A stretch of 64,000 nt of DNA from Bacteroidota bacterium (GTDB lineage: Bacteria > Bacteroidota > Bacteroidia > B-17B0 > Aurantibacillaceae). The position numbers and the translations under genes are program-made. Positions within the stretch are counted from its first letter, which is position 1; every line of letters begins with the position of its first letter. The stretch is from assembly GCA_016185125.1 (NCBI GenBank), contig JACPOC010000022.1, positions 1 to 64,000 on the forward strand, read 5' to 3'. Below the pieces are notes generated by a model that had not been told where the DNA came from, ran no database searches, and worked only from the letters and a program-made list of their open reading frames with translations. Below are positions 48,330 to 50,495 of the stretch, one piece after another.

Positions 48330-48941
48330 TTACGCGGCCACTCTTTGCAGAATTACTTTGCATGGAATAAGAGAAGTTACCTTAACAAAGTGCGAAGAGT
48401 GCAGCGGAATACTCATGTAATCTCCGGCTGATAAATGAAAAGGTGTACCATCAACAACAATATCGCAAGTGCCTTCAAGAATAAGAAATTTTTCATATTC
48501 GTTATCATGAACTTCGGGGGGTGAGCCTGTTTTTAACCAAACAATAGCGGTGGTAGCCTGTTGGGTTACACCAATTAACTTTGCATAAATATCTTCTAAG
48601 CGCGCGGGTAAGGTCATATCCGGCCGGCTTAACCATTCCTGATAATCAGAAGGTTTTGAATTTTCGTTTAAAAGAGGTACTTCTTGCTGCACTTCGCCAT
48701 TTTGCATTCTTGTTTGAAAATCCATGATGGCAAAAACAAAGGGTTTAACAGTTTCGTTCGGTTTATCATCATCCTTGGCGGCATACAACCTTATTGCCTT
48801 AGTTATTTCATCAATTTCATTTTTAATTTCAGGATGTAGTTTTGCAAGCTGTTCAATAAGCCTTGCTTCTTCATCATCGGCCATTCCAAGAACGTACAAT
48901 TCCAAAATACCTGATTCAATATATTTATTTAAGTCTTTCAT
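48330..48941 (-). CDS. Anti-sigma (RskA/ChrR-like) and cupin two-domain protein
   Basis: 203-residue cytoplasmic protein. Residues 1-80 fit the N-terminal region of the RskA/anti-sigma family (YIESGILELYVLGMADDEEARLIEQL, HPEIKNEIDEI, AIRLYA). From about 110 to the end there is a cupin barrel (SPPEVHDNEYEKFLILEGTCDIVVDGTPFHLSAGDYMSIPLHSSHFVKV) with possible metal-binding His. The ChrR-type zinc Cys/His set is missing. No ECF sigma factor gene is adjacent, which is unusual for this class. It may sense a small ligand with the cupin domain. Possible roles range from anti-sigma factor to a ligand-binding enzyme. Confidence 0.75.
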   Translation of the reverse strand: MKDLNKYIESGILELYVLGMADDEEARLIEQLAKLHPEIKNEIDEITKAIRLYAAKDDDKPNETVKPFVFAIMDFQTRMQNGEVQQEVPLLNENSKPSDYQEWLSRPDMTLPARLEDIYAKLIGVTQQATTAIVWLKTGSPPEVHDNEYEKFLILEGTCDIVVDGTPFHLSAGDYMSIPLHSSHFVKVTSLIPCKVILQRVAA

Positions 48942-49219
48942 TTAGCTTATTTTTTTAAGCAAGTATTTAACTCAATATTTAAATATTCTTTTTCAGGCAT
49001 TTAAATATTTAAGAATAAATTGATTTCTCATGTAAATATACGCCATTGGGCACAGCTTGGTTTTTTGGTTTATAACAAATATAACGTTGTTTTTTAAATT
49101 AGTGCTAAGCTTAATTGTTTTAAGTTTTTAAATCTTGTAAAAAAAACCAATAGCACAGCAAGCGGCTTTTAAACAGGTGAATTTATAAATCAAACAGAAA
49201 ATATTGTTATGAATACCTT
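48942..49219. other. AT-rich intergenic DNA left of the repeat array
   Basis: Very AT-rich DNA holding the promoter side of the anti-sigma/cupin gene. It contains several TTTAAATATTTAA-like stretches. I see no ORF, RNA or site I can defend. Confidence 0.5.
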
Positions 49220-49510
49220 TTAAAAGGGAGGCACGCGAGGGTTTTAACTCCATTTGCGAGGCTTTTAACTCCGCATTCGTAGTTAAAAGGGAGGCACGCA
49301 AGGCTTTTAACTCCGCACTCGCAGTTAAAAGAGAGGCGCGCGAGGCTTTTAACTCCGTTCGCGAGGCTTTTAACTCCGCACTCGCAGTTAAAAGGGAGGC
49401 GCGCAAGGGTTTTAACTCCATTCGCGAGGCTTTTAACTCCGGCTGTCAGGTTTTTTGGGAGGCGTGTCAGGTTATTAAGCCCGCGTGTCAGGTTATTAAC
49501 CTCGCCATCG
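49220..49510. repeat. Mixed-orientation 21-bp repeat array
   Basis: GC-rich array in an AT-rich gap. The core TTTTAACTCC starts at 49242, 49263, 49305, 49347, 49368, 49410 and 49431. Inverted cores (TTAAAAG-x-GAGGC) start at 49220, 49283, 49325 and 49388. Every distance between same-orientation cores is 21, 42 or 63, so all units lie on one 21-bp grid. The orientation order is R F F R F R F F R F F. Three more diverged units, each with TGTCAGG at 49444, 49465 and 49486, keep the same period. Adjacent F-R pairs form hairpins with CTTTTAACT/AGTTAAAAG arms. The function is unknown. Confidence 0.9.
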
Positions 49511-49520
49511 GGGTTTTGAA

Positions 49521-49573
49521 GTACCCCCCCCCACCTATATAGGTACCCCCCCCCACCTCGGAAGTACCCCCCC
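49521..49573. repeat. Three GTAC-poly(C) tracts with a palindrome
   Basis: GTAC followed by runs of 9, 9 and 7 C starts at 49521, 49543 and 49564, a 21-22-bp period matching the neighbouring array. Between the first two runs lies the perfect palindrome ACCTATATAGGT (49533-49544). Homopolymer runs like these are prone to slippage and to assembly error. Confidence 0.85.
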
Positions 49574-49754
49574 GAGCCTCAAAATGTTAAATTTGTTAAA
49601 TAGTTGTAAAACCGGCTCCCCTTAAGAGCAAATAAAAATCCTTTAAAATACGCAGTTATAAATAACCTCCCACTTGTTTTTTTAATCTCATAATAATTGG
49701 TTTGTATGTTTAAATAACGTTATATTTTAAACTATATTCGTTTACTTTTTAATA
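49574..49754. other. AT-rich intergenic DNA right of the poly(C) tracts
   Basis: Leads up to the outer-membrane protein gene at 49755. A TATATTCG at about 49731-49738 is near the -7 consensus but not exact. Nothing else is supported. Confidence 0.4.
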
Positions 49755-50495
49755 ATGCGGAAACTTTTTATATATATAGCGTATTCTTTAATGCTTAGTA
49801 TTTGTCCGGCTATTTTTTTTGGCCAAAGTGATACCTTAAGGCAGATAGATTCGTTAAAATTGAAGCTCAAAAACGATTCTGCGGCCATTTATCGTTTTAA
49901 AAAAGTGCGGCCATTTCTCTCCCTCGATAATCGGCACTCATTCATAAAAAATATGCCAATTAACGTGCAAGGTTTGCAAGTAGGAATGATTTTACATGAA
50001 AAACACACGCTTGGTATTGGCTTCTATACAATTAGAAAAGAATCAAAAACTCCGGTGAAAGTAAAAGACCAAAACAGAGTTGTTACACAAGCTTTAACAA
50101 TGAATTACTTTACCGCTTTTTATAAATATGCCTTAATTGACCGGAGATATATTGAACTTGACGTTCCTCTTGAATTAGGTTTGGGACGATTTGATATTAT
50201 TATCCGCGATTCGCTTAATGTAAAAGAATTGAAACGTGTCGGGGGCGGTGTTATTATGGGCGGTGCCGGCCTTAATCTTATACTAAAGCCTTTTAAGTGG
50301 ATTGGCCTTGGCCTCATGGCCGGATACCGTACAATGCCTAATAAAAATCTTAGAAATAATTTCAGCGGTTTGTATTATTCTTACGGTGTGTGGATTGATA
50401 TCCGCCAAATTTACCGCGATGTTAAGTTTTATGGCTTTAAAAAAAGAGGCTATAAGCGGGCTCTTCGAGATATTCGTCATGCAAAATCAGATTAA
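49755..50495 (+). CDS. Exported protein, probable outer-membrane beta-barrel, function unknown
   Basis: 246-residue protein with a signal peptide (1-23, ending FFGQS). A short alpha region (SDTLRQIDSLKLKLKNDSAA) is followed by beta-strand-rich sequence: MPINVQGLQVGMILHEKHTLGIGFYTI, LTMNYFTAFYKYALI, IELDVPLELGLGRFDI, IGLGLMAGYRTM, LYYSYGVWIDI. The layout fits a small outer-membrane barrel. The tail is basic (KKRGYKRALRDIRHAKSD). The 21-bp repeat array ends about 240 bases upstream of its start. No known family recognised. Confidence 0.65.
   Translation: MRKLFIYIAYSLMLSICPAIFFGQSDTLRQIDSLKLKLKNDSAAIYRFKKVRPFLSLDNRHSFIKNMPINVQGLQVGMILHEKHTLGIGFYTIRKESKTPVKVKDQNRVVTQALTMNYFTAFYKYALIDRRYIELDVPLELGLGRFDIIIRDSLNVKELKRVGGGVIMGGAGLNLILKPFKWIGLGLMAGYRTMPNKNLRNNFSGLYYSYGVWIDIRQIYRDVKFYGFKKRGYKRALRDIRHAKSD

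Follow-up and report, generated by a model that had tools for sequence, protein, structure and literature searches.

The window analysed here, the whole stretch of 64,000 nucleotides from contig JACPOC010000022.1 of a Bacteroidota bacterium, holds a tandem array of 21-bp units between two genes that are both directed away from it (Table 1). A preliminary description of this DNA had claimed a strict 21-bp grid, and this is borne out by 14 units that can be read in register, in the order B A A B A B A A B A A B' A A. Besides the examples given in Table 1, A units start at 49259, 49301, 49343, 49364, 49406, 49427, 49469 and 49490, and B units at 49217, 49322 and 49385, with a variant (B') at 49448. 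The cores counted earlier are all present: the seven TTTTAACTCC cores (49242, 49263, 49305, 49347, 49368, 49410 and 49431) fall on 0 mod 21, the four cores then named R, TTAAAAG(G/A)GAGGC (49220, 49283, 49325 and 49388), share a single phase, and three TGTCAGG units (49444, 49465 and 49486) keep a step of 21. The self-identity of the array at shift 21 is 0.50, against a maximum of 0.36 in 2000 base shuffles at shifts 15-30. As described before, the array is GC-rich in AT-rich surroundings, with a GC content of 0.51-0.53 inside (150-base windows) and 0.23-0.26 just outside on both sides.

Table 1. Features of the array region, in window coordinates.
Feature	Position	Strand	Basis
21-bp array, 14 units	49217..49510	+	register reading, TRF, phase check
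A unit, example (AGGGTTTTAACTCCATTTGCG)	49238..49258	+	register reading
B unit, example (TAGTTAAAAGGGAGGCACGCA; R in the preliminary description)	49280..49300	+	register reading
Tail array, 22-bp GTACCCCCCCCCACC units, poly-C	49518..49573	+	TRF; common to the C5 copy (alignment)
AT-rich end of homology with the C5 copy (TGTTAAATTTGTTAAA...)	49586..49611	+	alignment; end point by eye
Open frame of 97 codons crossing the array, not considered a gene	49128..49421	-	ORF list; substitutions without coding pattern

The mixed orientation attributed to these units appears doubtful. The + strand has no occurrence of GGAGTTAAAA, which is the forward core in reverse complement, and the R cores have GTTAAAA alone in common with it, so that the array is better described as consisting of two kinds of unit, A and B, on the same strand. 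When read in register, the R and D units of the preliminary description are additional same-strand units. Complementarity between inverted segments is present all the same, the + strand folding with a z of -4.0 as DNA and of -1.9 as RNA.

A second copy and arrays of the same spacing elsewhere

The 3.34-Mb genome contains a single further match to the window array, at C5:184373-184688, with 88% identity, and 90% identity across 208 ungapped bases. By alignment, the homology extends through the poly-C tail and stops in an AT-rich stretch common to both copies, and the tail pattern was found in only these two places when this genome was searched. At another locus, L203, the 3' flank carries an array of GGGGGGTACCC-type units that by eye is like the poly-C tail of the window array, the remainder being different. 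The neighbours of the C5 copy are different genes from those of the window array, which agrees in part with the earlier idea of a mobile element. The C5 array lies 3' of a gene from a family of ~165-residue proteins and starts 311 bp past the stop. A profile search found no family gene in the window, and for this reason the window array is called an orphan copy. By the criterion that we propose for the locus, a 20-22-bp array 3' of a family gene, the C5 relative belongs to it and the window copy does not. On the best reading, the array at C5 has an orphan copy in the window, and the direction of copying, from C5 to the window, is suggested by the presence of the gene at C5 only.

The conserved position in relatives that had been proposed as a check was not found. 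No match to the window array was obtained in the 59 other genomes searched, and in 18 relatives no array lies 5' of the orthologous neighbour gene, nor were orthologues of the remaining window neighbours found beside that gene. Of 395 genomes of the class, this one alone has the exact A-A pattern.

A further, third array of this genome, on C34, was weakly indicated by a profile of A-A pairs (E 0.06, two hits at a distance of 63 bases); on reading, it consists of 21-bp units with a 63-bp superperiod. A 100-bp repeat with 3.3 copies lies near it (L078 17219-17551), and two neighbouring 21-bp arrays of differing sequence (L076, C34, 15929-16219) lie between aspS-like and secA-like genes. When a collection of 84,980 genomes was scanned with the A-A pattern, 13 stretches were retrieved, four of which are 21-bp arrays by self-identity (0.49-0.71), the remaining nine having values of at most 0.39. 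The four come from Nostoc (L023), Sphingobacteriales (L024), Leptolyngbyaceae (L026) and Spirochaetaceae (L031). A viral match (L015) and a class-wide match to the A-A pattern with a spacer one base longer (L016) were without array on inspection. The Spirochaetaceae genome and a Fischerella plasmid record have arrays and no family match. The Spirochaetaceae array (L031 2258-2467) is located between two half genes on opposite strands, which by eye are transposase-like, as if it had been inserted or were part of an inversion.

Several 21-bp arrays of this genome are likewise without an adjoining family gene. One of them has some 20 units of another 21-bp repeat and lies between two convergent genes (L113, C9, 7322-7762). 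Two further arrays (L080, C16, 13898-14334; L237, C32, 2676-3572) are built of large blocks, 189 bp (9 x 21) and 210 bp (10 x 21) in size, and their printed consensus letters have unit sequences in common, so that they are apparently another same-genome array pair. No trans effect of the gene on array density was seen in general: near-21 intergenic arrays away from the gene have a density of 5.7 per 100 kb of non-coding sequence where the genome carries the gene (4 arrays) and of 6.2 in members of the genus that lack it (5 arrays). The density in this genome is higher (11.8, 4 arrays, over sampled stretches that include the one on C32); these counts are small, and some of the sampled stretches had been picked around known arrays and are thus biased for density.

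Arrays behind genes of one protein family

The C5, C34 and L024 arrays all adjoin genes of the ~165-residue family. The C5 and C34 proteins are 35% identical, and the L024 member is truncated at the end of its contig and also contains an internal stop. Searches of Pfam, NCBIfam, PADLOC and PHROGs with 43 members gave no shared model, only stray weak hits to single members, and no clear solved relative was found, the best PDB match having an E of 0.02. With a median pI of 5.1 (n=64), the core of the family is acidic. There are three copies in this genome (C5, C34 and C32), and a search with the C5 protein gave none in the 39 further genomes of the genus; within Bacteroidia the distribution is patchy, with 36 of 395 genomes, this one included. 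Two cyanobacterial genomes that were matched through the array pattern alone have 4 and 9 family matches. Relatives were not found in viral contigs or phages, and the one plasmid relative, from Candidatus Thiodictyon syntrophicum, is without array. Other proteins that cluster with one another, often with sorting-domain-like ends, are encoded within 4 kb of family genes at 30 loci; of their 41 ORFs, 31 lie upstream. In the open-access literature that was searched we found no published description of the family or of gene-linked 21-bp arrays.

For the analysis of linkage, 60 regions around family matches were taken and the family genes were located by profile, giving 64 genes. An array was scored where self-identity reached at least 0.55 at a shift of 20-22 within 700 bp of the gene, and two genes with less than 300 bases of flank were left out of the linkage count. 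The best self-shift 3' of the stop is 20-22 in 58 of the 64 genes, and 21 in 48. Arrays so defined lie 3' of 47/64 family genes and 5' of 1/64. Excluding the loci found through arrays (this genome and L024), the values are 44/60 for the 3' side and 1/61 for the 5' side; with TRF arrays near multiples of 21 added, they become 49/60 and 5/61. At least one such array is present in 26 of 30 genomes. For the other ORFs of these loci, that measure gave 7 of 368 (five arrays in fact, since two pairs share one gap), and the comparison with 47/64 gives a Fisher p of 8e-41, a value that overstates the case because genes within one genome are not independent; the genome count is free of that. By either measure 12 of the 64 family genes are without array, including the C32 copy of this genome. 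Among the 13 cyanobacterial matches, five attain a self-identity of 0.55 or more on the 3' side at shift 21; of the other eight, L250 falls just short at 0.54, L253 carries its array 5' of the gene, the flank of L245 is limited to 188 bases, and five have values of 0.44 or less. This directly observed linkage of gene and array points to an unstudied two-part genetic locus.

The period of the 49 arrays that could be delimited is 21 in 42 cases, 22 in six and 20 in one. They have a median start 79 bp after the stop and a median length of 197 bp, with 5 to 22 units. Periods of 20 and 22 would leave a single helix face. These periods also weigh against the idea of a protein-coding heptad repeat, in which 21 bp would correspond to 7 codons and to which the 97-codon frame across the window array could be ascribed. 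In the period-21 arrays (n=42) the fraction with a fully open frame is 0.64, compared with 0.70 after permutation, and the 21 differences between the window and C5 copies are distributed over every codon position in all frames. A coding origin is thus disfavoured and very improbable.

Array sequence turns over in most pairs of related loci, and the turnover is not complete. Array similarity in either orientation was compared with background, two gene fragments being excluded. Where the proteins are at least 60% identical, the arrays are within the background 95% in 24 of 33 pairs, including those at 85% and 83% protein identity, and exceed it in 9/33, including those at 99% and 96%; in 6/33 they exceed the background 99%. 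Units in common were also seen in the arrays of L024 and L236, whose proteins are ~50% identical. The idea of a helix-phased array, in the preliminary description a putative protein-binding one, survives and is strengthened, given that the same period stands behind many genes with mostly differing array sequences.

Turnover of this kind is ill-suited to a row of sequence-specific operator sites, which could otherwise serve a small downstream gene. Two such genes recur on the same strand and mostly start within ~65 bp of the array end: one for an ~82-residue protein (11 loci by clustering and three more by eye), without Pfam match in three members, and one for a Cro-like helix-turn-helix protein (6 loci by clustering), with weak HTH_26/HTH_3 matches, below the Pfam cut-off, in two members. 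Set against this, no small gene of this kind stands beside some 30 of the 49 delimited arrays, those of C5 and C34 among them, or beside the window array. An operator or promoter region is a live rival, though an improbable one.

Many of the arrays are self-complementary. In 30 of the 49, no more than 3 of 60 permutations that keep the phase fold equally well, which is the excess of self-complementarity observed; the other 19 failed this test, and two of these fold worse than nearly all permutations. Compared with dinucleotide shuffles, the mean z of the 49 arrays is -3.3 on one strand and -3.6 on the other, and -1.0 upstream. Between the stop and the array, counting the first 25 bases of the latter, 20 of 49 loci have a perfect-stem hairpin with a T run, as against 9 of 980 shuffles, and additional loci have imperfect terminator-like hairpins by eye. 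In those loci, the hairpin before the array would leave the array outside the main transcript of the gene. The folding of both strands in many arrays could be that of a structured RNA, either as the 3' UTR of the gene or as an independent transcript; a structured RNA had also been suggested for the window. Against such an RNA stand the terminator-like hairpins that separate gene and array, the about equal folding of the two strands, as expected of palindromic DNA, and the lack of an Rfam match to 48900-49900. For the window array, with an RNA z of only -1.9, this earlier suggestion is weak, and for the loci as a whole we regard it as quite improbable.

The main rival is a neutral minisatellite, in which slippage or template switching at hairpins beyond the terminator would produce ~21-bp repeats; the link to the gene would then reflect the siting or spread of the gene, and the array would be functionless. 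The loss of most array sequence while the protein is kept, and the orphan arrays of this genome, fit such an origin, as does the frequent self-complementarity of units, which template switching would leave. At L249, the stem of the hairpin that precedes the array recurs, by eye, in the array units. A match between the pre-array segment and the array of its locus (score of at least 24) is present in 17% of 47 loci, compared with 2% for the arrays of other loci. It is hard, however, to obtain from slippage alone a fixed period with differing sequences that is found 3' of one family in 26/30 genomes and behind only 7/368 other genes. We consider a neutral origin unlikely, yet it is a rival to be taken seriously.

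In our preferred reading, to which we assign a probability of about one half, the window array is the orphan array half of a two-part locus, and the array would be a phased scaffold at the level of DNA. The full locus would comprise a gene for an acidic ~165-residue protein, a terminator-like hairpin (in at least 20 of 49 loci) and an array of ~5-22 units of 20-22 bp, usually 21. Such arrays, often self-complementary, may act as DNA in the form of a phased row of dyad or hairpin sites. Recognition would be by shape and spacing rather than by sequence, either by the family protein or by a partner; as the family protein is acidic, a partner DNA-binding protein is as likely as direct binding. The outcome may be a nucleoprotein structure built in cis to the gene. 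Judging from the sequences compared here, a phased DNA scaffold is the likeliest mechanism.

Relation to known systems and significance

Iterons are tandem units of ~20-22 bp (the criterion being direct repeats of ~17-22 bp), two helical turns apart, at plasmid replication origins. The arrays described here resemble them as direct repeats in helical phase that adjoin one gene. In contrast to iterons, they occur as several differing arrays per chromosome, the 43 family members searched against Pfam, NCBIfam and PHROGs match no replication-initiator model, and the units are mostly not conserved with the protein (24/33 pairs at background, 9/33 above). They are probably not iterons, since the adjoining gene has no initiator match and the units are mostly not conserved with their cognate protein.

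REP and BIME elements with RAYT consist of many dispersed copies of one palindromic sequence and a linked Y1-type transposase. The likeness lies in short palindromic intergenic DNA that sometimes stands beside a gene (cf. PMC3733652). The differences are that unit sequence varies here by locus, that the tandem phase of 21 bp is strict, and that Pfam gives no transposase domain, Y1-type included, in the 43 family members. Membership was rejected, given that the window sequence occurs at only two places in this genome and that a Y1-type transposase is lacking. CRISPR was also rejected, judged from the repeats alone, as the units of 21 bp are contiguous and diverged, and not identical repeats with unique spacers.

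Palindromic amphipathic repeat coding elements (PARCEL) share with these arrays tandem units with dyad symmetry and a patchy distribution (PMC2996958). Their unit is coding and has 25 residues, unlike the 21-bp unit, which is without coding signal, and the arrays were not assigned to them. Beggiatoaceae have many intergenic TAACTGA direct repeats, for which transfer between distant lineages is considered possible (PMC4679880); these are 7-base units of fixed sequence, whereas the arrays here have a fixed period and a mostly free sequence. A tandem repeat coding for heptads was rejected as well, there being no sign of an open frame kept by selection.

We know of no named system with these features. 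What is new is the linkage of gene and array with a fixed period and a largely free sequence, the window array by itself being one orphan copy. More tentatively, and at somewhat less than even odds, this may be a new kind of locus in Bacteroidia and cyanobacteria, in which a protein family is coupled in cis to an array that inherits period and dyad symmetry and not sequence, with recognition of shape and helical phase, and from which arrays could be copied away from the gene.

If the linkage is functional, a family that has no model in the libraries searched gains a recognisable DNA partner, whose spacing is fixed and whose sequence is largely free, and this would imply an unusual rule for the recognition or upkeep of DNA. 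Dozens of gene-array pairs, some of them in Nostoc, offer a test bed. Should the arrays prove neutral, phased 21-bp repeats arising from a gene-linked source would still be new as a mutational phenomenon.
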